From: Fodinicola acaciae
GTDB lineage: Bacteria; Actinomycetota; Actinomycetes; Mycobacteriales; HKI-0501
Reading direction: 5' to 3'
Assembly: GCF_010993745.1 (NCBI RefSeq)
Contig: NZ_WOTN01000004.1
Coordinates: 620,001 to 684,000 of the forward strand
DNA length: 64,000 nucleotides
Shown: positions 24,246 to 62,876 of the stretch, in pieces
How positions within the stretch are numbered: position 1 is the first letter of the stretch
How the letters are laid out: each line of letters starts with the position of its first letter
The notes under the pieces: model-generated
What the model was told of the DNA's origin: nothing
Databases searched by the model: none
The model's input: only the letters and a program-made list of their open reading frames with translations
Translations under genes and position numbers: made by a program

Positions 24246-26018
24246 TCAGGCGCCGGCGGTGTTCTTCGTCGTGCCGGTCTGACCGGTCGTCGGTGATTGT
24301 GTCCCGCCGGGACCGCCGATGGTGATTCCGCCGTCGGTTGGACTCGTCGACGGACTCGCCTTCGGCTTGTAGCGATAGACCACGACGTTGACTGTCGAGC
24401 CGGATGCGGCCTTGGCACCATCGCCCGGGTCCTGCGACGCGACCGTGTTGTCCAGCGTCTGGTCGGTGGTGTCCTTGTAACTGGAGATGTGGAACTTGAA
24501 GCCTGCGCCGGTGATCTGGCTGCGAGCACTGTCCACCGAGGCACCGACGACGCCGGGCACCTGGACCTGGCCGCCGGACACGGTGATCGTCAGCGTGTCG
24601 CCCTTCTTCATCTTCGTCCCCGGTGCCGGGTCCTGCTTGACGATCGCGCCGGCCGGCTTGGACGAGGAGCTGTCGGTCTGCTGCGTGACGTTGATGCCGA
24701 GCGGATCGGCCCAGGCCTTGGCGTCGGCGAACTTCTTGTCGGTGAAGTCGGGCACGGCCTGCGAAGCCGGACCGCTGCTCACCGTCAACGTGCAACTGGC
24801 ACCCTTGCTCGCCGCGGCACCGGCGGGCGGATCCTGCCCGATCACGTTTCCGGATGCGATCGAGTCGTTCGGCGCGGGCTTTTCCTGGCATTTCTGGAAG
24901 CCGGCGCTCTGCATCTGCTGCTGCGCCGCCGCGACCGGCTGGTTCTGCACGTTCGGAGTCGTGGACTTGGAGTTGTTGAGCAGGAAGGTCGTGGCGAAGG
25001 CGGCGATCGCGAAGACCACGATGATCGCGATCACCACGCCGGTGATGATCAGGCCGCGGCGGCGCCTGTCTTCCTCCTCCGGCTCCACGCGGCGGTGGTG
25101 CTGCTGCTGGAGCGGCGGGGTGTTGATCAGCTGCGTACGCTCGTCGTCGCTCATCACCGGCGTCGCGGACACCGGCCGGCCGGCGGCCGCGCGGAGCAGG
25201 TCGGACCGCATCTCGGCGCCGGACTGATAGCGGTTGGCCGGGTTCTTCGCCATCGCCTTCAGCACGATCGCGTCGACGTCCGGCGTCACGTCCGGGTTGA
25301 GCTGGCTCGGCGGGATCGGGTTCTCGCGTACGTGCTGGTATGCGACCGCGACCGGACTGTCGCCGGTGAACGGCGGATGACCGATCAGCAGCTCGTAGAG
25401 CAGACAGCCGGTGGAGTAAACGTCCGATCGCGCGTCGACCGTCTCGCCGCGGGCCTGCTCCGGCGAGAGATACTGCGCGGTGCCGATCACCGCGGACGTC
25501 TGCGTCATGGTCGACGTGCCGCCGGCGACCGCGCGGGCGATGCCGAAGTCCATCACCTTGACCGAGCCGGTGGTCGTCAGCATCACGTTGGCCGGCTTGA
25601 TGTCGCGGTGCACGATGCCGTTGCGGTGGCTGAAGTCCAGCGCGGAGCACACGTCCGCGGTGATCTCCATGGCGCGCTCGGGCTGCAGCCGGCCCTCGTC
25701 GGCCAGCACTTCCTTGAGCGTGCGGCCCTCGACGTACTCCATGACGATGTACGGCAGCGCGACACCGTCGGCGTTGGTCTCCTCGCCGGTGTCGTAGACC
25801 GCCACGATCGCCGGGTGGTTCAGCGCGGCGGCGTTCTGTGCCTCGCGCCGGAAACGGGTCTGGAAACCCTGGTCACGCGCCAGGTCGGCGCGCAGCACCT
25901 TGACCGCGACATCGCGGCCGAGCCGCAGGTCGGTGCCGCGATGCACCTCGGCCATCCCGCCGTAGCCGAGGATCTCGCCGAGCTGATAGCGACCACCGAG
26001 CAGACGTGCCTCGGTCAT
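24246..26018 (-). CDS. pknB: Serine/threonine protein kinase PknB with PASTA domains
   Basis: A 590-residue receptor kinase. The kinase domain (residues about 8-270) has the glycine loop GYGGMAEVHRG, Lys in VAVKVL, HRDIKPANVM, the VMDFGIAR Mg motif and a Thr-rich activation loop (GGTSTMTQTSAVIGTAQYLS). A membrane helix (GLIITGVVIAIIVVFAIAAF) leads to three extracellular PASTA domains that bind muropeptides. It controls cell-wall synthesis and growth; FHA proteins and PstP of the same operon are its usual partners. ATG at 26018 is used because AGGTGGGG stands upstream; a GTG at 26033 is possible. The usual mycobacterial PknB has four PASTA units. Confidence 0.95.
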   Translation of the reverse strand: MTEARLLGGRYQLGEILGYGGMAEVHRGTDLRLGRDVAVKVLRADLARDQGFQTRFRREAQNAAALNHPAIVAVYDTGEETNADGVALPYIVMEYVEGRTLKEVLADEGRLQPERAMEITADVCSALDFSHRNGIVHRDIKPANVMLTTTGSVKVMDFGIARAVAGGTSTMTQTSAVIGTAQYLSPEQARGETVDARSDVYSTGCLLYELLIGHPPFTGDSPVAVAYQHVRENPIPPSQLNPDVTPDVDAIVLKAMAKNPANRYQSGAEMRSDLLRAAAGRPVSATPVMSDDERTQLINTPPLQQQHHRRVEPEEEDRRRRGLIITGVVIAIIVVFAIAAFATTFLLNNSKSTTPNVQNQPVAAAQQQMQSAGFQKCQEKPAPNDSIASGNVIGQDPPAGAAASKGASCTLTVSSGPASQAVPDFTDKKFADAKAWADPLGINVTQQTDSSSSKPAGAIVKQDPAPGTKMKKGDTLTITVSGGQVQVPGVVGASVDSARSQITGAGFKFHISSYKDTTDQTLDNTVASQDPGDGAKAASGSTVNVVVYRYKPKASPSTSPTDGGITIGGPGGTQSPTTGQTGTTKNTAGA

Positions 26019-26115
26019 GAGACGGCACCCCACCTAACACGCTGACCTGCGCAGGGGCTGCTGTGCCGCCTTGCTGGCACGTACATCTGCTTTCTTCCTG
26101 ACCTCTCTGGCTGCC

Positions 26116-27651
26116 TTAGCTCGTACTCGCCGAAGGCGTCGGCGACGGCGGTGTCGACGCGACGGGGGTGCATGTCACGGTAACGGTCTGGCCCTTGTAC
26201 GCCTGCCGCGGGTTGACGTCCAGGAAGGTGTTGGGCTTCGCGTTCGCCGTGCCGTCCTTGTCCACGCGGGTGGTGTTCAGGCCTTTCGCCTCGATGGCCG
26301 AGCGCGCGTCCGGACACGACATGCCCTGATAGGCGCCGGGGTCCAGGACGATCGGCTGTGGCTGCGGCTTGGTCGTACGGCCGGGGCTGCTCGGCGGCGC
26401 CGACGGTCCACCGGTCTGGCCAGGAGTCTGCGCGCCAGGAGTCTGCGACTGGCCGGCCGCGGTGGACTGGCTCGGCGACGGCGTCGGCGACGGTACGCCG
26501 CTGGTCGCGCCACCCTGCGGCGACTGGTCGAACTCGTTGCTGCCGCCGTCGGCCGGCGTCTTCTGCGCCACCTGCTGCGGCCGGTTGTTCATCGCGATCG
26601 CGTAGCCGGCGCCGACCATCAGCACCAGCGCCACGGCGGCCGCGATGCCGATCGCCAGCACGCTGCCGCGCCGGTGCGAGCGGCTCTGCCGGATCGTCGT
26701 GCCGAGCGCGGCCGCGTTGGCCATCGTCGGCGTGGCTGGCACGATCGTGCCACGGCCTGGCTTGGGGATCCGCGGCGTAGGAGCCTTGCCGGAGGAGGTC
26801 ACCACGCCGGACATCGCGGCGCGTGCGGCGCCGGCCAGTGCCTCCATGTCGGCATAGCGCGAGCCGGGTTCCTTCGCCATCGCGCGGGTGACGAGTGCGC
26901 GCGCGGCCGGTGGGATGTCCGACGGCAGGGCCGGCGGCTTGTCGCGCAGGTGGGCGAGCGCGACCCGCGTCGGGTTCTCGTCGGTGAAGGGCCGGCGGCC
27001 GGACAGGCACAGGTAGGCGACGACGCCGAGCGAGTACTGGTCGCTGGCCGGGGTCGCCTTCTTGCCGGCGGCCTGCTCGGGCGGCAGGTACGCGGCCGTA
27101 CCGAAGACCTGGCCGGAGGAGGTGATGTGGGTCGACTCGACCGTACGCGCGATGCCGAAGTCGGTGACCACGACGGTGTTGGCGCCGGTGGCCGGGTCGT
27201 GTTGGACCATCAGGTTCGCCGGCTTCACGTCGCGGTGCACGACACCGGCGCGGTGCGCGGCGTGCAGCGCCTCGGCGGTCTGCGCGACCAGCTCGAGGGT
27301 GGTGTCGACGGGCAGCTTGCCGACCCTGGCCAGCAGGTCGGACAGCGGCTCGCCGTCGACCAGCTGCATGACCAGGTAGGCCTGGGGTGGCCCGCCTTCC
27401 AGCTGCGTCTCGCCGTAGTCGTAGACCGCGGCGATGCCGGGGTGATGCAGCCGCGCCGTGTTGCGCGCCTCGGCGCGGAACCTGTCCACGAACCCTGGAT
27501 CGCTGGACAGCTGCGCGTGCATGATCTTCAGTGCGACGGACCGGCCGAGCACCTCGTCGTGTCCCCGCCAGACCTCGCCCATGCCGCCGACGGCAATGCG
27601 AGAGTCGAGCCGGTAACGACCGCCCAGTAACGCACCCATGGTCACATTCAT
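26116..27651 (-). CDS. pknA: Serine/threonine protein kinase PknA with one PASTA-like domain
   Basis: A 511-residue receptor kinase. Kinase motifs are AVGGMGEVWRG, VALKIM, HRDVKPANLM, VTDFGIAR and the activation loop ESTHITSSGQVFGTAAYL. After a Pro/Ser/Thr-rich linker and a membrane helix (LAIGIAAAVALVLMVGAGYA) comes an extracellular domain with MSCPDARSAIEAKGL and YKGQTVTVTCTP, which looks like one PASTA domain. Mycobacterial PknA lacks such a domain. The ATG at 27651 overlaps the pbpA stop (ATGA), giving coupled translation; ATG at 27639 is an alternative. Named by position in the operon. Confidence 0.9.
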   Translation of the reverse strand: MNVTMGALLGGRYRLDSRIAVGGMGEVWRGHDEVLGRSVALKIMHAQLSSDPGFVDRFRAEARNTARLHHPGIAAVYDYGETQLEGGPPQAYLVMQLVDGEPLSDLLARVGKLPVDTTLELVAQTAEALHAAHRAGVVHRDVKPANLMVQHDPATGANTVVVTDFGIARTVESTHITSSGQVFGTAAYLPPEQAAGKKATPASDQYSLGVVAYLCLSGRRPFTDENPTRVALAHLRDKPPALPSDIPPAARALVTRAMAKEPGSRYADMEALAGAARAAMSGVVTSSGKAPTPRIPKPGRGTIVPATPTMANAAALGTTIRQSRSHRRGSVLAIGIAAAVALVLMVGAGYAIAMNNRPQQVAQKTPADGGSNEFDQSPQGGATSGVPSPTPSPSQSTAAGQSQTPGAQTPGQTGGPSAPPSSPGRTTKPQPQPIVLDPGAYQGMSCPDARSAIEAKGLNTTRVDKDGTANAKPNTFLDVNPRQAYKGQTVTVTCTPVASTPPSPTPSASTS

Positions 27652-29105
27652 TGCTGCTTCGCCACCTCTACCGCGGCCTGCAGAACCTTTCCAGCCATCC
27701 CACTTGGGATCGAGCTCGAGCCACCGGCGTGATCCAGCACGACGGCGACGGCAGCGACCGGCTTGCCCTTGTCGATCGCATACCCGATGAACCAGGTCGT
27801 GTCCTCACCACCGTCACCGTTCTGAGCGGTGCCGGTCTTGCCCCCCACCGTGACGTCGGAGATCGCGGCGTCCTTACCCGTGCCGTGCGGTCCGACGACC
27901 GACTGCATCATCTGTTGAAGCGAGCCGGCGATCTGTGGGGTGATCGGCTGGCCGTACTGCTCCGGTGAGGTCTTGCCCAGCGACGACAGGTCCGGCCCCA
28001 GCACGTCGCTGACGAGGTACGGCTTCATCTCGATGCCGCCGTTGGCCACCGCGCCAGCGATCATCGCACCCTGAAGCGGGCTCATCCGGACATCTCGCTG
28101 ACCGATCGCGGACTGCGCGAGGGAGGGCTTGTCGGGAATGTCGCCGAGCTTGCTCGTCGCTGCATGGACAGAATCATTGGAGATATCGGCGCCAAAGCCA
28201 AACTGGTTGGCCTGATTGCGAATTTTGTCCGTTCCCAATGCCACCGCAAGTTGCGCATACGCGGTGTTACAGGACACTCGCAGTGCGTCGAGGAGTGTCG
28301 TGGTCTTGCCGTCGCCGGCGCAGGAACTGCCGTGGTCGTTCTTGATCGGCGTCGTCGTGCCCGGCGCGGTGTACGTCGTGCCGGACGGGATGGAGCTCTG
28401 CGGGTTGTAGCCGTTGGCCAACGCGACCGCCGAGTCGACGACCTTGAAGGTCGAGCCGGGCGGGTAGGTCTCGTTGGTCGCCTTGTTGCGGATCGGGTTG
28501 TTCGGATCCTTGATCAGCTTGTTGTACGCCGCGACATAGGCGTCGTAGTTGTGCGTGGCCAGCTGGTTGGGGTCGTAGGACGGACCGGAGACCATGCCGA
28601 GGATCGCGCCGCTGGTCGGGTCGAGCGCGACGATCGCGCCTTTCTGGTTGCCGAGCGCGTTGTAGGCGGCCTGCTGCACCTTCTGCCGTACGGTCGTCTG
28701 CACCGTGCCACCCTGCGCCTGCCGGCCGGTGACCAGGTCGGACAGCCGGCGGACGAACAGCTTGTCGGAGTCGCCGGTGAGGAACTGGTTCTGGTAGGCC
28801 TCCAGCCCGTACGGGTCGCCGGTCACCGGGAAATAGCCGGTGACCGCGGAGTAGAGGTTGCCGGCCGGGTATTTGCGCAGGTATTTCAGCTGGCCGGTGG
28901 TCGCCTGCGTGTCCGCGATGATCTGCCGGTCGCCGTTGAGGATCTGGCCGCGTTTGCGGTCGAAGTCCTGGATCTGCGTACGCCGGTTGAGCGGGTTGTT
29001 GCGGTATTCGCCGCCCTTGACGACCTGGACCCAGTTGAGGTTGAGGAACAGCAGGGTGAACAGCACCATCACGGCGACCGCCACCCGGCGCAGCGGAGCG
29101 TTCAC
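27648..29105 (-). CDS. pbpA: Class B penicillin-binding protein PbpA
   Basis: A 485-residue transpeptidase with an N-terminal membrane anchor (VAVAVMVLFTLLFLNLNWVQ) and a dimerisation region. Its three catalytic motifs are STFK in PPGSTFKVV (nucleophile Ser), SCN in RVSCNTAYA, and KTG in VGGKTGTAQ. It cross-links peptidoglycan together with the glycosyltransferase RodA, whose stop overlaps this start (GTGA). The GTG at 29105 is chosen for that overlap and for the family start; the frame is open further upstream inside rodA but without similarity. Confidence 0.95.
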   Translation of the reverse strand: MNAPLRRVAVAVMVLFTLLFLNLNWVQVVKGGEYRNNPLNRRTQIQDFDRKRGQILNGDRQIIADTQATTGQLKYLRKYPAGNLYSAVTGYFPVTGDPYGLEAYQNQFLTGDSDKLFVRRLSDLVTGRQAQGGTVQTTVRQKVQQAAYNALGNQKGAIVALDPTSGAILGMVSGPSYDPNQLATHNYDAYVAAYNKLIKDPNNPIRNKATNETYPPGSTFKVVDSAVALANGYNPQSSIPSGTTYTAPGTTTPIKNDHGSSCAGDGKTTTLLDALRVSCNTAYAQLAVALGTDKIRNQANQFGFGADISNDSVHAATSKLGDIPDKPSLAQSAIGQRDVRMSPLQGAMIAGAVANGGIEMKPYLVSDVLGPDLSSLGKTSPEQYGQPITPQIAGSLQQMMQSVVGPHGTGKDAAISDVTVGGKTGTAQNGDGGEDTTWFIGYAIDKGKPVAAVAVVLDHAGGSSSIPSGMAGKVLQAAVEVAKQQ

Positions 29106-30544
29106 AGCCGCACCACCTCGGTCTGCGCACTCTGCAGCTGGGTCGCCGGCGCGGCCGGCACGACCGGACGCCGGCCGGCGTCGGAGATCCGCAGCAGGAT
29201 GGCCACGAGGATCCAGCTTGCCAGCAGCGACGAACCGCCGTATGACAGCCACGGGGTGGTGATGCCGGTGAGCGGGATCAGGCCGGAGACGCCGCCGACG
29301 ATGACGAAGACCTGCAGGCCGATCGAGAAGGCCATGCCGCCGGCCAGCAGCTTGCCGAACGAGTCGCGTACGTCCAGCGCCGACCGCAGGCCGCGCAGGC
29401 TGATCAGCAGATAGAGCATCAGCACGCCGGTCATGCCGAACAGGCCGATCTCCTCGCCGATCGACGTGGTGATGAAGTCGCTGGCGGCCACCGGCACGAT
29501 CGTCGGATGGCCGGCGCCGGGGCCGGTGCCGAAGATGCCGCCGGTGCCGAAGCCGAGCAAGGACTGGACGAGCTGCAGGCCCTTGTCGGTGGGGTCGGCG
29601 AACGGATGCAGCCAGATGTCCACGCGCAGCTGTACGCGGCTGACCAGGGCCCAGGCCAGCACCGAGCCGCCGAGAAACAGCAGCAGGCCGATCAGCAGCC
29701 AACTGGTCCGTTCGGTGGCGATGTAGAGCATCGCGATGAAGATGCCGAAGTACATCAGCGAGGTGCCGAGGTCGCGTTCGAACATCAGCACCAGCAGCGA
29801 GACGGCCCAGGCGGTCACCACCGGTCCGAGGTCGCGGCCGCGCGGCAGGTCGATGCCGACGAACCGCTTGCTGGCCAGCGACAGCACGTCGCGCTTGCTG
29901 ACCAGATACGACGCGAAGAAGACCATCAGCGCCAGCTTGCCGAACTCACCTGGCTGGATGCCGCCGAGGCCGGGTAACACGATCCAGATCTTGGCGCCGT
30001 TGTTGCCGGGGTCGCTGATGCTGCCTGGCAGCAGTGCCGGCGCGATCACCAGCACCAGACCGACGATCCCCAGCGTGTACGAGTAGCGGGACAGGATCCG
30101 GTGGTCGCGGATCAGCAGCATCACCACGCAGAAGGCGGCGATCGCCACGATCGTCCAGATCACCTGCCTGGTGCCATTGCCGCCGTACATCGCCGGCTTG
30201 GAGGCCTGCGCCTTCACCGACTCCATGCCGAGCCGGTTGATGAACAGCACGCCGATGCCGTTGAGCAGCGCTACGCACGGCAGGATGACCGGATCCGCGT
30301 ACGAGGCGAAGAACCGGACGACCATGTGCGCGATCACGAACAAAACGGTCAGTGCGACCGGGATGTAGAGGCTGGAGCTGTCCACCTTGCTCTGCAGCGC
30401 GGCCTGGATGGCGGCCGACAGCGCGACCAGGATGACCGCCACGACGAGAAGCAGCACCAGCTCCGCGTTGCGGCGGGTCGGCGGCCGGCGCGCGGCTCGG
30501 CTCGGCTGGCTGGCTGCTGCCTGTGCGGCGGTCGGCGAGGTCAT
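29102..30544 (-). CDS. rodA: RodA/FtsW/SpoVE family glycosyltransferase
   Basis: A 480-residue membrane protein with about 12 helices, the SEDS peptidoglycan polymerase. Family signatures are GAKIWIVLPGLGGIQPGEFG, RDLGTSLMYFGIF, GHPTIVPVAASDFITTSIGE and TGITTPWLSYGGSSLLASWI. It makes glycan strands from lipid II with PbpA. Its ATG at 30544 overlaps the pstP stop (ATGA). A longer upstream frame exists but runs through pstP. Confidence 0.95.
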   Translation of the reverse strand: MTSPTAAQAAASQPSRAARRPPTRRNAELVLLLVVAVILVALSAAIQAALQSKVDSSSLYIPVALTVLFVIAHMVVRFFASYADPVILPCVALLNGIGVLFINRLGMESVKAQASKPAMYGGNGTRQVIWTIVAIAAFCVVMLLIRDHRILSRYSYTLGIVGLVLVIAPALLPGSISDPGNNGAKIWIVLPGLGGIQPGEFGKLALMVFFASYLVSKRDVLSLASKRFVGIDLPRGRDLGPVVTAWAVSLLVLMFERDLGTSLMYFGIFIAMLYIATERTSWLLIGLLLFLGGSVLAWALVSRVQLRVDIWLHPFADPTDKGLQLVQSLLGFGTGGIFGTGPGAGHPTIVPVAASDFITTSIGEEIGLFGMTGVLMLYLLISLRGLRSALDVRDSFGKLLAGGMAFSIGLQVFVIVGGVSGLIPLTGITTPWLSYGGSSLLASWILVAILLRISDAGRRPVVPAAPATQLQSAQTEVVRL

Positions 30545-31854
30545 CGTGGTCGGCAGGTCGAGTCGGCGGAGTTGCTCGGGCTGGCTGACGGGGTCGGCGA
30601 CGGGTTGGGGGATGGCTTGGGGGACGCACTGCCAGCGGGCCGGCTCGGCTCCGGCACCGGACACAGCGGCTTGAGGTTGTTGCGCAGCCGGTCCAGGATC
30701 GCCTGCGCGTCGCTCTCGTTCTGCGCGGTGATGCCTTCCTGCACCTGGCGGGCCGGCACCGGCAGCAGGTCGGACACCTTCAGGTCGCTGCGGCTGGCCT
30801 CCCTGGCCAGGCTGATGCCGGCGACCGAGCCGCGTACGCCGCGGAAGATCGCGACGTGGCCGTCCGAGGCGGCGCCGACGTAGTACTGCGCCTGCGTGTA
30901 CGTCCAGCCGCCGTAGCCGATGGCGACGACCACGATCAGCGCGGCCAGGATGAGCAGGGTCGTACGGATCCGGTGCCGCGGCGGCGCCGGCTCGTCGAAG
31001 TCCTCCGGCTCCTCCTCGACGTCGGTTTTCGGCCGGGCCAGCGCGGCGCGGCCGGCGGCGGAGTCGGGACTGGCGCCGGACTTGCGGCCGCGGTCGCGTG
31101 CCGCGGCGCCACCGACCACCGGGGCGTCGTCGCCGGTCTCCTTCTCCATGATGTCCGCGACGATCACGGTGACGTTGTCCGGAGCGCCGGCACGCAGGGC
31201 GAGCGCCACCAGGCGCTCGGCGACCAGCGCGGGCGTGTCCAGCGCCATCGTCTCGCTGATGGTGTCCTCGCTGACGACGACGGTGAGGCCGTCGCTGCAC
31301 AGCAGATAGCGGTCGCCGGGCACCGCCTCGCGCACCGAGAAGTCCGGGTCGACGTCGCGGCCGTCCAGCGCGCGGGTCAGCAGCGACCGCTGCGGGTGGC
31401 TGCCGGCCTCCTCCGCGGTGATCCGGCCCTCGTCGACCAGCATCTGCACGTACGTGTCGTCGCGGGTGATCTGGTTGAGCTCACCCTCGCGGAAGACGTA
31501 CGCGCGCGAGTCACCGACGTGCACCAGCGCGAGCCGGTTGCCGGAGAACAGCATCGCGGTGAGCGTCGTCCCCATGCCCTCCAGCGCCGAGTTGTCCTCG
31601 ACCGCGTGGCGGAGCTGCTCGTTGGCCTCGGCGACAGCGCCTTTCAGCGCGTCGACCAGGTCGGAGCCGGGTGCGTCCTCGTCCAGCGGCGCCAGCGCGG
31701 CTACGACGATGTTGCTGGCCACCTCGCCGGCGACCATGCCACCCATGCCGTCCGCCACCGCGAGCAGCCGGGGGCCGGCGTAGACCGAGTCCTCGTTGCC
31801 TTCGCGGATCAGCCCGCGGTCGGACTTGGCGGCGTAGCGCAGGGTCAGACTCAT
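30541..31854 (-). CDS. pstP: PP2C-type protein phosphatase PstP
   Basis: A 437-residue PP2C phosphatase that removes phosphate from PknA/PknB targets. Metal-binding and family motifs are RGLIREGNEDSVY, LAVADGMGGMVAGEVAS, VHVGDSRAYVF, YLLCSDGLTVVV and GAPDNVTVIVAD. A membrane helix (TTLLILAALIVVVAIGYGGW) near residue 310 leads to a short extracellular part with a Pro/Ser-rich end. No good ribosome binding site precedes the ATG; the start overlaps the stop of a 23-codon gene (ATGA), so it should be translated by coupling. Confidence 0.95.
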   Translation of the reverse strand: MSLTLRYAAKSDRGLIREGNEDSVYAGPRLLAVADGMGGMVAGEVASNIVVAALAPLDEDAPGSDLVDALKGAVAEANEQLRHAVEDNSALEGMGTTLTAMLFSGNRLALVHVGDSRAYVFREGELNQITRDDTYVQMLVDEGRITAEEAGSHPQRSLLTRALDGRDVDPDFSVREAVPGDRYLLCSDGLTVVVSEDTISETMALDTPALVAERLVALALRAGAPDNVTVIVADIMEKETGDDAPVVGGAAARDRGRKSGASPDSAAGRAALARPKTDVEEEPEDFDEPAPPRHRIRTTLLILAALIVVVAIGYGGWTYTQAQYYVGAASDGHVAIFRGVRGSVAGISLAREASRSDLKVSDLLPVPARQVQEGITAQNESDAQAILDRLRNNLKPLCPVPEPSRPAGSASPKPSPNPSPTPSASPSNSADSTCRPR

Positions 31855-31922
31855 GAGGCCGAGCCAGTCATCGTCGTCTGGTCGGTCTCAAGGCTGCGCT
31901 GCCTTTGGGAAGTCTGAGTCAT
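31851..31922 (-). CDS. 23-codon gene tiled between fhaB and pstP
   Basis: ATG at 31922 overlaps the fhaB stop and the TGA at 31851-31853 overlaps the pstP start, both in the ATGA form. The product is polar and Thr-rich (begins MTQTSQRQRSLETDQ). The 64 bp between fhaB and pstP are thus fully translated if ribosomes reinitiate at each overlap. It could be a coupling device with an unimportant product. It could also be a small kinase substrate: an acidic-Thr-Thr stretch like the one here is what FHA partners recognise after phosphorylation. No homologue recognised. Confidence 0.45.
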   Translation of the reverse strand: MTQTSQRQRSLETDQTTMTGSAS

Positions 31923-32392
31923 GACCTCAACTCGAGCGATGTGCGGCCGATGCGTACGACCGCACCTAGGGGGACTGGGGTCGGACCGGTGACCTTGGCG
32001 CGGTCGAGGTACGTCCCGTTGGTCGAGCCGACATCCTCCACCAACCACTGCCCGGCCCGGGGGATCAGCCTGGCGTGCCGGGTGGAGGCGTAGTCATCGG
32101 TCAACACCAGCGTTGAGTCGTCGGCGCGACCGATGGTGATGGGTGTGTCTCCTAGCGTGATGCGGGTGCCGGCGAGTGCGCCTTCGGTGACCACCAGCGT
32201 ACGTGCCGCCTTGCCGCGCCGGACTTTCGCGGGTCGCGTCGGCGCCGGCGGCAGCCCGCGCGGGCTGGCCACCAGCCGGCTCTGCCTGGTGCCGAACAGG
32301 TCACGCCGTACGACGCCGATCACCGCGAACACGAAAATCCACAGCAGTGCGAGAAACCCGAAGCGGGCGACGGCGAGTACGACCTCTGGCAT
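31919..32392 (-). CDS. fhaB: FHA-domain membrane protein FhaB (FipA)
   Basis: A 157-residue protein with an N-terminal membrane helix (FGFLALLWIFVFAVIGVV) and a C-terminal FHA domain that binds phosphothreonine: TIGRADDSTLVLTDDYASTR, HARL and EDVGSTNGTYLD hold the conserved Gly-Arg, Ser, His and Asn contacts. In mycobacteria FhaB links PknA signalling to FtsZ/FtsQ at the septum. It starts 14 bp after the fhaA stop. Confidence 0.93.
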   Translation of the reverse strand: MPEVVLAVARFGFLALLWIFVFAVIGVVRRDLFGTRQSRLVASPRGLPPAPTRPAKVRRGKAARTLVVTEGALAGTRITLGDTPITIGRADDSTLVLTDDYASTRHARLIPRAGQWLVEDVGSTNGTYLDRAKVTGPTPVPLGAVVRIGRTSLELRS

Positions 32393-32406
32393 GACCGCGA
32401 TTGTCC

Positions 32407-33240
32407 CTAGGAGTCCAGACGCAACGTCAGGGTGGTCGTGCCCACCTGGATGACGTCACCGGGCTGCAGTGCCACCGCGTTGATCCGCGAGCCGTTCACC
32501 GCGGTGCCGTTCGTCGAGCCCAGGTCGGTGATGACCACCCGCGATCCGTCGAAGTCGAGCCGCGCGTGCTGCCGCGAGATGCCGACGTCGGCGATCCGCA
32601 CCTGGGCCGCCTCACCGCGGCCGAGCACGGTTGAGCCGATGGACAACGAATACTGCCGGCCGTCGGTGGCCACCAGCCGCGCCGTGGCCCCCACCGGCTG
32701 GCCGTAGCCGTAGTCGTTCTGCGGTGGCGCCGGGCTGTACGGCTGCGCCGGCCCCCCGGACGACTGCGCCAGCGAGGCCGGCGGCACCGGCCCGGTCGGC
32801 GCGTACGGCGGCGGACCGCCATAGCCTCCGCCGTACTGCTGCTGTGGCGGCGGCTCCGGCTCGACACTGCCGGTGTAGACCTCGCTCACCACCCGGAACA
32901 TGCCGGTGTCCAGCCCGTCGCCACGCTCGATCTCGACGATCACGTCGCCGTAGACCGTCCACCCCTGCTCGCCGATGAACTCGGCCTGCGCCTGCGCCAG
33001 CTCCTGCGCCAGTGCGGCCGCGTACTGCTCCAGCCGGTCATGGTCCGACGCGGAAAGGTCGATGATGTAGCGGTTCGGCACCAGGGTCCGGCCACCGCCG
33101 AGGATCGACCGGTGCGCGTCAGCCTCCCGCTGCATCGCGCTGGCGATCTCGACCGGGTGCACGACACCCTTGAAGACCTTGGCGAAAGCCCCCTCCACCA
33201 AGCCCTCGAGCCGCTTCTCGAAGCGCTGCAGCACCCCCAC
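32407..33240 (-). CDS. fhaA: FHA-domain protein FhaA
   Basis: A 277-residue cytoplasmic protein. Residues 1-125 are the DUF3662 domain (MGVLQRFEKRLEGLVEGAFA and on), followed by a Pro/Gln/Gly/Tyr-rich linker and a C-terminal FHA domain (STVLGRGEAAQVRIADVGIS, RQHARL, DLGSTNGTAVNG). In mycobacteria FhaA binds the phosphorylated pseudokinase MviN and restrains peptidoglycan synthesis. It is the first gene of the seven-gene operon and faces the tRNA-Leu 98 bp away; the operon promoter should be in that gap. Confidence 0.93.
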   Translation of the reverse strand: MGVLQRFEKRLEGLVEGAFAKVFKGVVHPVEIASAMQREADAHRSILGGGRTLVPNRYIIDLSASDHDRLEQYAAALAQELAQAQAEFIGEQGWTVYGDVIVEIERGDGLDTGMFRVVSEVYTGSVEPEPPPQQQYGGGYGGPPPYAPTGPVPPASLAQSSGGPAQPYSPAPPQNDYGYGQPVGATARLVATDGRQYSLSIGSTVLGRGEAAQVRIADVGISRQHARLDFDGSRVVITDLGSTNGTAVNGSRINAVALQPGDVIQVGTTTLTLRLDS

Positions 33241-59167: not shown

Positions 59168-59225
59168 CGAACTCGACGTTTTGGTCCTCGACACGCCGTG
59201 TTAAAGGACCAAAACGTCGAGTTCG
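59168..59225. terminator. Bidirectional terminator with 21-bp perfect stem
   Basis: The 21-nt arm at 59168-59188 (CGAACTCGACGTTTTGGTCC and one more base) is perfectly inverted at 59205-59225. The 16-nt loop itself holds ACAC/GTGT. It follows the LPVTG gene by 7 bp and ends 3 bp before the leftward frame that stops at 59228, which suggests the original leftward gene ended there. Confidence 0.82.
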
Positions 59226-59227
59226 CG

Positions 59228-59490
59228 TTATCGGCTGGGCCGGTGCGGCTCCTGGCGCGGCTGCGGATTGTTCGGCCGCAGGTCTGGCCGCGGCTGCTGT
59301 TGCCGCCCACCCGCGGCGGCCCGCTGCTGCAACGCCCGAGCCTGAGCCGCCCGCGCCCGCGCCGCCAGGTCATCCGGCAACGGCTCGCCGGCCGGTGGCT
59401 GCGGATCGGCGCCGGTCGTACGCTGCTGCAGCTGGCCGGTCACCGCGTCGAGGCGGCCATCCTGAAGCAGCTGGTGAGCCTGCACGTCGC
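59228..59490 (-). pseudogene. Out-of-frame C-terminal part of the coiled-coil protein
   Basis: In a different frame from the coiled-coil gene, an open stretch from about 59490 to TAA at 59228-59230 reads EVRDVQAHQLLQDGRLDAVT and continues Gln/Arg/Pro-rich with good codon use. If one G were inserted in minus-strand GCGAAG|TACGCG (about 59491-59496), the frame of the coiled-coil gene would run into this tail. The terminator begins directly after it. A one-base deletion, or a sequencing error, is the simplest explanation. Confidence 0.55.
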
Positions 59491-60270
59491 GTACTTCGCT
59501 TGCGCCAACACAGCACGCGCGTCCGCCGTACTCGCCTGCTGGCCAACCGTCTGAAGCTGTTCCCTTAGCTGCTGGTGTTGCTGATCGCTGTTCTGCGCAT
59601 GCGACACCAACTGCTGGATCATCGCCTGTTGCTGCTGAACCATCGCACGATCCTGCTGCCGCTCCACCTGCAGCTGCTGAATAACTTGTTGTTGCTGCTG
59701 GATCGTCTGTTGTTGCTGCTGATTTGCCGACTCCAGTGTTGAGAGGCGTTGTTCTACCTGTGGGTCAGTCCTGTTCGCCTGCAGTTGCTGGACTGCCGTT
59801 TCCAGGTTGCCGAACCGGTTGTTGAGAACGCCGATGCGAGTGTTAGCCCGAGTGGCCTGCTCGTTGGCTTTGGTCGCCGATTTCTCAACCTGCTCGAGCC
59901 TTTCCGCCGGATCAACCTCAGGCGGATCATTCCGGTGTCGATAGCGATCAATCGCCTTCCATGCACCGACTCCCAGTGCGATACCGGCAGCGACGACCCC
60001 CATGCTGCCAATATCGCCGGCTTTCTGTGCAACGTTTTCACCGAAGTAGGTCATGTTGCCGACAAGCGCAGCTGTCTGTTCACTGACGAACAGTTTCACG
60101 GGTGACTGCGCGGCGAATGTCGCGATCCCGGTCGCGATCGTTGATGCGGCTTTTGCTGGAACGTCGAGAGCGGATCGTACGATCGGACGATCGCGCAACC
60201 AGCGTTGCCAGGCTCGGAAAGACAGGCTGCCGAGTCCGCTGTTGCGATTGCCGAACCGCAAGTGGCTCAT
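59440..60270 (-). CDS. Membrane protein with Gln-rich coiled coil, probably frameshifted
   Basis: A 276-residue protein in its present form. Residues about 90-112 form a membrane helix (GSMGVVAAGIALGVGAWKAI). From about residue 125 a long coiled coil follows (EQVEKSATKANEQATRANTR, then runs of Gln such as ESANQQQQQTIQQQQQVIQQ). The last 15 or so residues, after AVLAQAK, look out of frame: the neighbouring frame continues convincingly to 59228. The intended product would be about 340-350 residues. ATG at 60270 overlaps the stop of the upstream gene (ATGA). No family recognised. Confidence 0.6.
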   Translation of the reverse strand: MSHLRFGNRNSGLGSLSFRAWQRWLRDRPIVRSALDVPAKAASTIATGIATFAAQSPVKLFVSEQTAALVGNMTYFGENVAQKAGDIGSMGVVAAGIALGVGAWKAIDRYRHRNDPPEVDPAERLEQVEKSATKANEQATRANTRIGVLNNRFGNLETAVQQLQANRTDPQVEQRLSTLESANQQQQQTIQQQQQVIQQLQVERQQDRAMVQQQQAMIQQLVSHAQNSDQQHQQLREQLQTVGQQASTADARAVLAQAKYATCRLTSCFRMAASTR

Positions 60271-60860
60271 GTTATGTCCAGATATCCAGCACCTGCGGTG
60301 AGGATTGCGGGGATCGTCGCTGCGAACAAGATGCCGAGTTCGTTGGTCGACATCGGTGCGTTTCCACGGTGCTTGCTGTAGTCCCGGACGCTGTCCCACA
60401 GGGATGGAAACCGGATGGAGCCAGACCACAGGACGAAGAGATCGTGCTGCAGGGTCAGAACGACCTCGTTGCCGACTGCCACCTTGAACATCGACGGATC
60501 CTCTGGCGTGTTGCCCACCCCGGTCGCTGTGGGGTGCAAGTTGTGTCGTTTGAGGAAGTCGACGGACGAGCGTTCAGTTTCGTCGTACTCGACGAGGAGT
60601 CCGCCTTTGATCAGCTCGTCCAACATGCTTGCGTCGACGCTCGCGTTGGCTGCGAGCTGTTCGAGATGCTGCCGCGTGAATCGGAGCTCACGGTGCGCGT
60701 CAGGATCGCCGAACGCGAGCGACCAGAGCCGGCTCGCTGGTTCGCTCAGCTTTGCCTGATCGCGCGCGACAAGCACTTCGAAGTATGCGGGCTCGTCCTG
60801 CTCGTCGATGGGGTGGCGGACACCCATGGGGTAGCCGACCGGGACGATGATCTTTGGCAC
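60267..60860 (-). CDS. Unrecognised protein, possible winged helix
   Basis: A 197-residue protein of unknown family. Residues 45-95 (FTRQHLEQLAANASVDASML, DELIKGGLLVEYD) look like a winged helix-turn-helix. The next part has a pattern of short strands (HPTATGVGNTPEDPSMFKVA, VVLTLQHDLFVLWSGS) and the C-terminus is hydrophobic (ILFAATIPAILTAGAGYL). It lies between the XRE regulator gene (57 bp upstream) and the coiled-coil gene (4-bp overlap), so the three form one operon. Confidence 0.6.
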   Translation of the reverse strand: MPKIIVPVGYPMGVRHPIDEQDEPAYFEVLVARDQAKLSEPASRLWSLAFGDPDAHRELRFTRQHLEQLAANASVDASMLDELIKGGLLVEYDETERSSVDFLKRHNLHPTATGVGNTPEDPSMFKVAVGNEVVLTLQHDLFVLWSGSIRFPSLWDSVRDYSKHRGNAPMSTNELGILFAATIPAILTAGAGYLDIT

Positions 60861-60917
60861 GTGTGTCTCCCCGCTCGTGAGTCCTTGCGTACGGCCATCG
60901 TAGTGGAGTTGGCCCCG

Positions 60918-61793
60918 TCAGCGGTCCCTCTTCGCGACATCTGTGGACAACTCGGTCGCCGCGGCCAGCAGCATGTCGTTGGTCTCTGCGGGGCTGAGAG
61001 CCATCTCGTTGCAACTTGACAGCAGCCGGCGATACGGCTCGATCTCCTTTTCCTTGTCCAAATACAGATCACCGGTCAGAACTTCCACGAACACCGTCGT
61101 CGGTTCGCTGTTCTTTGGAAATTCGAGGACGCGGAACGACGGCGTCATCGACGAATGTTCTCCGGCCGAGAACGGAATGATCCGCAGGGACATGTTGCCG
61201 CGAGCGTTGATTTCGGCCAGATATTTGAGCTGCTTGGCCATGACATCCCGGCCGCCGACCGGCCGACGGATCACTGCCTCGTTCAGGAACCACTCATGGC
61301 GTACGCCGTCTTTTTCCAGCAATTTCTGTCGCATCATTCGTACCTCGGTCAAACGCCTGACCTCGTTCGGCGTGAGCGTTACCGACGTGTTCATGATGGC
61401 CGTCGCGTATTCACAAATCTGCAAAAGGCCCGGCACGAGTTCCGAGCTGTATTCGTGGATGTAGGTTGCCGTCTCCTCGAGGTCGATGAAGATGATGAAC
61501 CATCGAGGAATCACGTCACCATAGCTGTGGTACCAGCCTTTGGTTTTGGTTTCCCTGGCGAGTGCCTTCAACGCCTCGGTCAGTTCCTCCGGCGCGCCGT
61601 ACACCTTGCACATGGCCTCGACGTCGAAGACGCGCATGGCGAACTCGCCGCGTTCGATACGCCAGATCTTCTGGCGCGACCACTCCAGGTCCTGCGTGAC
61701 GGCCTCGATCGTCAGCTGCGCCGACTCGCGCAGCAGCCGCAGCTCGCGTCCCAACCGGCGGCGCGGGACGGTCGATCCCTGCTCACTCGCCAT
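60918..61793 (-). CDS. XRE family regulator with DUF5753
   Basis: A 291-residue regulator. The N-terminal Cro/C1-type helix-turn-helix is RRLGRELRLLRESAQLTIEA, VTQDLEWSRQKIWRIERGEF. The remainder is DUF5753 (IIFIDLEETATYIHEYSSEL, VPGLLQICEYATAIM, LRIIPFSAGEHSSMTPSFRV). Such proteins are abundant in actinomycetes and often pair with small DUF397 proteins; none is next to it here. ATG at 61793 follows AAAGGGTGAG. It is the first gene of the leftward operon and diverges from the small Cys-rich gene. Confidence 0.88.
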   Translation of the reverse strand: MASEQGSTVPRRRLGRELRLLRESAQLTIEAVTQDLEWSRQKIWRIERGEFAMRVFDVEAMCKVYGAPEELTEALKALARETKTKGWYHSYGDVIPRWFIIFIDLEETATYIHEYSSELVPGLLQICEYATAIMNTSVTLTPNEVRRLTEVRMMRQKLLEKDGVRHEWFLNEAVIRRPVGGRDVMAKQLKYLAEINARGNMSLRIIPFSAGEHSSMTPSFRVLEFPKNSEPTTVFVEVLTGDLYLDKEKEIEPYRRLLSSCNEMALSPAETNDMLLAAATELSTDVAKRDR

Positions 61794-61986
61794 GGTTCTC
61801 ACCCTTTGATGTTGCACGTCGATACGTCGTCGTTCACCGCTGGTGCAACGTCATCCGATGGCCGGGATGTAACACTCTTATCCCTATAAATGGAACGTTG
61901 CGTACAAAAGTTATAGCTGGTTCGATCCGAGTTACGCAAAGCAGTGGCGCGGCTCGGGAGGGTAACCACAGCTGAGCGGGGAATCG
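61794..61986. promoter_or_regulatory. AT-richer divergent promoter region of the island
   Basis: GTTGCAC (61811-61817) is inverted at 61843-61849 (GTGCAAC). Further GTTGCG and GTTACGCA elements occur at about 61897 and 61931. The stretch around 61870-61915 is clearly AT-richer than the window average and has promoter-like TTGTAC and TATAGGGAT on the minus strand. It probably serves the leftward XRE operon and the rightward small gene. Confidence 0.5.
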
Positions 61987-62205
61987 GTGTTGCCACCGGA
62001 GTTCGACCGCGAGGTGGAGTTGCTGCGGGTGCACCTGCCGCAGTGGCCGTGCGGACAAAGCAGCTTCTGCAAGGCATGTGGCTGGTCCTGGCTGCGGGCA
62101 CCGCTGTCCAGCGGAAAAATCGTGGCGGGCTGCCGTTATCGGCGCGCGGCGTTGCAGGTTTTGGAGGACTGCGGCGTGCTGCCGGACTCGGTCGTCATTC
62201 GATGA
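61987..62205 (+). CDS. 72-residue Cys-containing small protein
   Basis: GTG at 61987 to TGA at 62203-62205. The product has a short Cys cluster (WPCGQSSFCKACGWSW) and a fourth and fifth Cys further on (VAGCRYRRAA, LEDCGVL), so a zinc site is possible. It begins MLPPEFDREVELLRVHLPQW. The stop overlaps the next start (ATGA). Small Cys-rich proteins of this kind accompany XRE/DUF5753 regulators in actinomycetes; the function is unknown. Confidence 0.65.
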   Translation: MLPPEFDREVELLRVHLPQWPCGQSSFCKACGWSWLRAPLSSGKIVAGCRYRRAALQVLEDCGVLPDSVVIR

Positions 62206-62876
62206 CGGATACGCAACTCCGCTGGCAGTCGGCTCGCGACGCCTGGCAATGGGCCGACGAGATCGACAAGACGCGAGCGATGCTGGAGGCGGTCGGCAGT
62301 CGGTACGCGACACGTACGGCCGCGCCCGGTTATCTGCTGACGACCGCTCGCGATCTGCTCGGGGAATGCGCAGAGCGTGAGGTCACGGATCCGTGGGAGG
62401 TGTGGAGTCGCCGGGTCGGTGTCTATCTGGGTCTGGTCTTAGGCCAGTTTCTTTACGACTGGTGGCAGCACAAGCGTCTGACGATGCTCGATGTCACTGT
62501 CAACCCGTTGGTCATTTTGCTGGTGTGGCTTGGGTACGTCTTCTTCCACCGACGACGGACGAAGTTGTCGCGTCGTCGTGAGTTGAGCCGAGGACGTACG
62601 ACCACGTCGCCTTACGACAAAGCGCGTGATCACGAGTTGGTGGACGATCCGAGTCCTGAGCTGACCGTCGCGTACGCCGGATGGCGTGCCGGAGCACTGG
62701 CGCAGTCGATGCGCATTCTCCTGCAAGAAGACCGCCTCGCGGCGGCACGCGTGCCGATCGCGTACGAGGACGACGTGTGTGTGGCGGCCCTCTATCTGAC
62801 CGGTGCGACGGAGTTGCTGAAAGGCCTCAGCGACTACGTGGAAGGCGAGAAAAGCGTGGCCAACTGCGGTGAATAG
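62202..62876 (+). CDS. Unrecognised membrane protein of the island
   Basis: A 224-residue protein. A helical soluble N-terminus (DTQLRWQSARDAWQWADEID) is followed by two close hydrophobic segments (VGVYLGLVLGQFLYDWW and VNPLVILLVWLGYVFFH) forming a hairpin. A very basic stretch (RRRTKLSRRRELSRGR) and a helical C-terminal domain come after. No family recognised. The start overlaps the stop of the Cys-rich gene, so translation is coupled. Its end overlaps the convergent ROK gene by 43 bp. Confidence 0.6.
   Translation: MTDTQLRWQSARDAWQWADEIDKTRAMLEAVGSRYATRTAAPGYLLTTARDLLGECAEREVTDPWEVWSRRVGVYLGLVLGQFLYDWWQHKRLTMLDVTVNPLVILLVWLGYVFFHRRRTKLSRRRELSRGRTTTSPYDKARDHELVDDPSPELTVAYAGWRAGALAQSMRILLQEDRLAAARVPIAYEDDVCVAALYLTGATELLKGLSDYVEGEKSVANCGE

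Follow-up and report, generated by a model that had tools for sequence, protein, structure and literature searches.

A probable reduced-form WhiJ/BldB-type regulatory locus of Fodinicola acaciae and the multicopy P2–P3 gene pair next to it

Fodinicola is a soil and root actinomycete, and a five-gene island in the genome of F. acaciae raises the question of what a regulator controls when, among the five proteins, it alone is recognized by Pfam, NCBIfam and PADLOC. The island occupies positions 59228–62876 of the window, i.e. the 64 000-nucleotide stretch of DNA analyzed here (contig 4, positions 620001–684000, of a genome of 8,860,993 bases in four contigs), the right edge of which lies 1.1 kb past the island. 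The published assembly of F. acaciae GKU 173, which this genome matches, is a hybrid of PacBio and Illumina data (4 contigs, 8.86 Mb; PMC7232338). In the sequence and the list of open reading frames, three genes (P1, P2 and P3) read leftward and two (P4 and P5) read rightward (Table 1). ATGA overlaps join P2 to P3 and P4 to P5, and the P1–P2 gap is 57 nt, which bears out the description, in an earlier note on this DNA, of a divergent island held together by overlaps and short gaps. The AT-richer promoter region claimed in that note is also present, as a 193-bp intergenic region with 53.9% GC, and so is the base usage unlike that of the neighbours: the GC content of the island, 0.605, falls at about the 3rd percentile, the mean of the window being 0.677, and the GC3 of P1, P2 and P5 is 0.74–0.79 compared with 0.86 for the flanking genes. 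This low GC is no sign of recent import, because P2 is low in GC in most of the sister loci too; recent horizontal acquisition, as a reading of the low GC, was rejected, given that the orthologous island and most of the sister loci share the low GC. The inverted repeat next to P3 is probably the transcription end for this gene; nowhere else in the genome does the 16-bp core of the repeat form an inverted pair. Elsewhere in the window (24246–33240), the translations reveal an apparent cluster of PknA/PknB kinase, PBP, RodA-like, PP2C and FHA genes.

Table 1. Features of the island and its surroundings, in window positions
Feature	Positions	Strand	Description
Inverted repeat	59168..59225	.	perfect 21-bp repeat between convergent genes, without T tract
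P3, 3′ part	59228..59485	-	other frame (...QAHQLLQDGRLD...); aligns with C-terminal third of uninterrupted L054 P3
P3, 5′ part	59440..60270	-	weak hydrophobicity in the N-terminal region; Gln-rich coiled coil; start inside ATGA overlap with P2
P2	60267..60860	-	197 aa; member of a multicopy family without match in Pfam or NCBIfam; residues ~40–92 possibly a winged-helix core
P1–P2 spacer	60861..60917	-	57 nt; matches DUF397–P2 spacer of L054
P1	60918..61793	-	XRE (HTH_31) + DUF5753 regulator, WhiJ/Sco1979-like, 291 aa; Pfam, NCBIfam
Divergent promoter/operator region	61794..61986	.	conserved block GTTATAGCTGGTT, three GTTGC/GCAAC elements
P4	61987..62205	+	72 aa, Cys-cluster (CxxCGW..GC); first (variable) gene of divergent operon
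P5	62202..62876	+	224-aa helical protein, hydrophobic hairpin in the middle; translationally coupled to P4

The regulator P1 is of the WhiJ type, a known kind of switch for development or antibiotics. The XRE/DUF5753 assignment made at the outset is confirmed by Pfam, in which the longer, 299-aa frame matches HTH_31 in the N-terminal part (4.4e-17, residues 21–83) and DUF5753 in the C-terminal part (2.4e-48, residues 110–283). The same family includes the regulators of the Scr1/Scr2 and SCO1979/1978 XRE–DUF397 pairs of Streptomyces coelicolor (PMC10364602, PMC6262351), from which the window locus differs in that P1 scores 234 bits with the NCBIfam Sco1979 model, under the equivalog cut-off of 350, is not followed by an adjacent DUF397 gene, and is accompanied by the extra genes P2–P5. 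An unfiltered profile search detected no DUF397 directly after P1 or anywhere else in the window, so the lack of this partner, already remarked on, is real for this locus, although it is not a characteristic of such loci: in 9 of the 10 XRE–P2 loci found in two Fodinicola species, a DUF397 gene lies between XRE and P2, and the window is the exception. The orthologous island of F. feengrottensis (L054), which encodes a P1 orthologue 59% identical to that of the window, has DUF397 at L054:6737–6934, and eight further XRE–P2 loci carry one as well. With DUF397 present in the sister species and absent only in the window, secondary loss is the simplest account. The P1–P2 spacer points in the same direction: by manual count, 37 of its 57 bases are the same, in an ungapped alignment, as those of the DUF397–P2 spacer of L054, a likeness which suggests that DUF397 was probably deleted in the window lineage.

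P2 belongs to a multicopy family. The search of its own genome yielded 13 loci (14 matches), i.e. 12 paralogous loci besides the window, and that of F. feengrottensis yielded 12 matches, among which the L054 orthologue is 68% identical; 7 of the 12 P2 proteins tested have a reciprocal-best partner in the sister species, with 56–84% identity. Close relatives of P2 were found in Fodinicola alone, and a contig search with a narrower P2 alignment matched just F. feengrottensis. Across the class, at least 2 of 395 genomes are positive with the P2 profile when the best 8 candidates per genome are scored, a depth at which distant relatives may escape, and weak relatives, often in tandem, occur beyond the genus in other families of the order. 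Pfam gave no match above chance for 16 P2 proteins, the P2 profile had no match in a sequence search of the PDB, and no P2 was found in plasmid or phage records. The winged helix that had been suggested for P2 is not established by these searches or by structure prediction, the AlphaFold model built from four sequences having a pLDDT of 50, with residues ~40–92 alone predicted fairly, and finding no Foldseek match at E below 0.1. A faint internal repeat (E 0.002–0.004, probability 14%) carries no weight in the conclusions. As a separate observation, remote P2-like proteins stand in tandem in another family of the order (L066:3117–9957; also L065, L069 and L073); their neighbours in L066 are a 142-aa coil protein, a Dynamin_N GTPase and a protein with a YwqJ-deaminase domain, and those in L069 and L073 are similar.

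The family is tightly bound to P3. In all 24 loci examined in the two Fodinicola species, P2 is followed by a P3-type gene, mostly through the 4-nt ATGA overlap, and the distance matrices of the two proteins are correlated across 18 loci (r = 0.65, Mantel P 0.0002), a value that shared species history can inflate. The P2–P3 pair is new to the databases searched and is present in about a dozen copies per Fodinicola genome. Sister-locus genes were called with a simple codon-score caller, and the F. feengrottensis HKI 0501 genome, a draft, is 74% complete and has apparent frameshifts. The association with regulators is looser. At 7 of the 13 P2 loci of the own genome, a DUF5753 gene is found within 2.5 kb (chance probability 6e-10), and across both genomes XRE is directly upstream, in the same direction, at 10 of the 24 loci; on the P2 tree, the loci with an XRE neighbour are scattered, with at least five forced changes. 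About half of the P2–P3 loci are without XRE; the module thus does not depend on being regulated by XRE. The co-occurrence of the five families elsewhere, a prediction of the earlier note, therefore holds in part: P1, P2 and P3 recur together at these 10 loci in two species, and P5 at 6 of the 10, but P4 is absent from L054. That orthologous island includes DUF397, an uninterrupted P3, a relative of P5 and the same ROK-type neighbour as the window, at 86%. At another locus (L015:2354–9437), P2 and P3 stand in a row between the genes for an XRE–nSTAND1–WD40 protein and for an AspBHI/Mrr-type nuclease, possibly as a defence-like locus.

The sequence at 59228–60270, taken at first for a single P3 gene, consists of two overlapping frames, 59440–60270 and 59228–59485. 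The P3 of L054 (L054:5073–6086) is one frame of 337 aa, so the window P3 has a one-base frameshift, near 59485–59525; this shift may be an error of the hybrid PacBio/Illumina assembly instead of a real deletion. Programmed frameshifting was rejected, with no slippery heptamer seen by eye at 59485–59525 and the L054 gene uninterrupted. Of the membrane-anchored, Gln-rich coiled coil originally proposed, the Gln-rich coiled coil stands, whereas the frame is split in two and the anchoring is weak: a single segment reaches a Kyte–Doolittle hydropathy of 1.53, which hints at membrane association. A typical P3-type protein combines a basic start with one or two stretches of weak hydrophobicity, a coiled coil and a tail rich in Pro and Gln; those of L010/L011 and their orthologues lack any hydrophobic segment above the cut, and in L016 and L017 the partner of P2 is a different coil protein that clearly spans the membrane.

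Given the P3 frameshift together with the missing DUF397, the window copy may not work fully, and these same two losses raise the possibility of a decaying remnant, non-functional since DUF397 was lost and P3 truncated. Decay also affects sister loci, P5 being split over frames in L009 and an ATP-grasp gene fragmentary in L013. As a description of the window locus this is nevertheless unlikely: P1, P2, P4 and P5 remain open frames, the truncated P3 still has its N-terminal part and the greater part of the coil, and a one-base assembly error (PMC7232338) may explain the frameshift. Furthermore, P1, P2, P3 and P5 are under purifying selection (dN/dS 0.18–0.64, with 0.18 for P2 and 0.12 for a flanking gene; some dS values are near saturation), which for P1 and P2 has acted since the species split, as an average over the whole branch.

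The divergent region and the genes across it offer clues to what P1 may switch. A 13-nt block, GTTATAGCTGGTT, is common to the intergenic regions of the window and L054, and none of 500 shuffles gave an exact match as long; each species has three GTTGC/GCAAC elements (joint shuffle P 0.0002, for a motif chosen post hoc). A sigma-70 promoter scan found none, and the direct repeat CGNNCTCAAC of WhiJ9 was not found in the intergenic region of either the window or L054, so the region does not have a WhiJ9-type operator, although operators may differ between paralogues. P4 and P5 have no fitting Pfam or NCBIfam family. The coupling of a Cys-cluster protein to a membrane hairpin protein, as first described, is borne out by their ATGA overlap and by a hydrophobic core in P5 that is clearer than that of P3; the AlphaFold model of P5 from a single sequence (pLDDT 47) is too poor to use. 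P5 is found across the XRE promoter in six loci (the window, L054, L055, L060, L009 and L061) and has no relatives in this position at the other P2 loci examined. Frameshifts in L054 and L009 imply that some P5 copies have decayed or carry draft errors. The gene before P5 varies: the place is taken by P4, by a TIGR04187-like ATP-grasp or by a protein of 100/101 aa, or is empty. P4 has two relatives in its own genome (~35% identical over nearly the full length), which lie in regions containing genes for GntR-type regulators, and it was either gained in the window lineage or lost in that of L054. The proteins in the place of P4 in L055 (L055:7640–7945, 101 aa) and L060 (L060:3178–3480, 100 aa) are 59% identical and belong to no family. 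P4-like Cys-cluster proteins are encoded at L097:5242–5505 and L098:5536–5829, near GntR-type regulator genes in apparent integrative-element regions.

The best explanation, with a probability of roughly 0.6, is that the island is a reduced-form WhiJ/BldB-type regulatory locus that controls a new membrane-associated P2–P3 module. By analogy with WhiJ9 and iosA, P1 would most likely bind the 193-bp divergent region and control both the P1–P2–P3 and the P4–P5 operons, its normal modulator, the DUF397 protein, having apparently been lost at the window locus. The soluble P2 would assemble with P3, a membrane-associated coiled-coil scaffold, as one unit, each of the dozen or so P2–P3 copies probably having its own set of partners, and a second membrane component, P5, would be under the control of P1.

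The genes that share the surroundings of P2 suggest another role, namely that P2–P3 is an accessory module of RiPP biosynthesis, in which the precursor peptide is recognized or carried by P2 and the machinery is held at the membrane by P3, with the modifying enzyme lost or exchanged in the window copy. A P2 locus lies within 2 kb of each of the three SAV_5884-like (TIGR04187-like) ATP-grasp genes of the genome (chance probability 4e-7) and of two of the eight long LanB genes (chance probability 0.002); none of the three ATP-grasp genes reaches the curated cut-off of that family. In L009 and L061, an ATP-grasp takes the place of P4. An FxLD precursor (L017:7233–7601) scores above the TIGR04363 cut-off and, by eye, has a near-identical core in L016:7035–7199; these cores, PCSTNDGCAxSCASxCASRG, lie beside LanB and a P2 paralogue. 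As in FxLD lanthipeptide clusters, L016 and L017 thus combine P2 and a membrane coil protein with precursor and LanB, whereas the window has neither precursor nor LanB. The presence of DUF397/DUF5753 genes near graspetide clusters is stated in the cited portions of published work (PMC13097080, PMC8939145), and a TIGR04187-like ATP-grasp is likewise divergent from XRE–DUF397 in L009, L018, L061, L064 and, in fragmentary form, L013; the window, in contrast, has no ATP-grasp and no recognized precursor, and those portions do not name P2, P3 or P5. The contig of the window encodes no such ATP-grasp, with no TIGR04187 match, and no LanB, and no precursor was recognized beside the ATP-grasp genes, the sole graspetide-leader-like motif found around the loci, PLxxRGM, being in the L055/L060 protein of 100/101 aa. 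Nor is an RRE fold supported for P2: its profile gave nothing against eight LanB proteins (best probability 2%), its model finds no fold match, and the strict RRE element order was not seen in it, at the low confidence of that model. The link of P2 loci to peptide modification is a statistical association, and ATP-grasp and LanB may simply have the same regulators as P2–P3; a RiPP accessory role is possible, on balance doubtful. A broader version, quite improbable as a whole, would make P2–P3 an undescribed peptide-handling module that serves ATP-grasp as well as LanB pathways under the control of WhiJ/BldB regulators, with P2 a new peptide-binding protein (RRE-like or tandem winged-helix) and P3 a membrane scaffold; Fodinicola would then have a dozen parallel peptide-signal circuits, the one in the window with the zinc-finger-like P4 in the place of the enzyme.

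Phage response and a toxin-like function, two of the three roles proposed at the outset, converge on a conflict system, with XRE as antitoxin or regulator and P3 or P5 as a membrane-acting effector. XRE–DUF397 pairs have indeed been proposed as toxin–antitoxin systems (PMC2701414), P3 and P5 evolve fast, and P2–P3 in L015 is preceded by an nSTAND1–WD40 protein and followed by an AspBHI/Mrr-type nuclease. Yet 14 XRE–DUF397 pairs were non-toxic in S. coelicolor tests (PMC10364602), and in the window the supposed toxin, DUF397, is gone while P1 is kept, which leaves the toxin-like role with no direct support. As for phage, the PADLOC matches are limited to weak coiled-coil hits of P3 and short HTH hits of P1, none of relevance to known defence systems, P2 is absent from the phage and plasmid collections, and orthologues in the sister species exist for most copies of P2 (7 of the 12 tested with a reciprocal-best partner above 55%), which is not the pattern of mobile genes. 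A conflict system is accordingly very unlikely. The third proposed role, developmental or signalling, fares best of the three because P1 is WhiJ-type and is placed divergently like whiJ9 and iosA (PMC10294661, in the part cited), and the locus may thus have a signalling role.

The closest known system is whiJ9-bldB9-iosA of S. venezuelae, in which, according to the cited part of the published account (PMC10294661), the WhiJ9 regulator acts on the divergent gene iosA. Both there and in Fodinicola, a WhiJ-kind XRE gene adjoins a target that resembles nothing known, paralogous copies are numerous in each genome, and DUF397 is the partner, in Fodinicola at the sister loci. The window differs in lacking both DUF397 and the CGNNCTCAAC repeats, in having P4–P5 instead of IosA as candidate targets, and in carrying P2–P3 downstream of the regulator, an arrangement that does not appear in that part of the account. 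The XRE–DUF5753/DUF397 loci are numerous in actinomycetes, and for the question of what they switch, the P2–P3 family offers concrete candidate targets. The P2–P3 loci with and without the regulator, DUF397 or a modifying enzyme amount to a natural experiment, in which comparison of the window locus, without DUF397, with its DUF397-containing sister could show the effect of DUF397 on its regulator.
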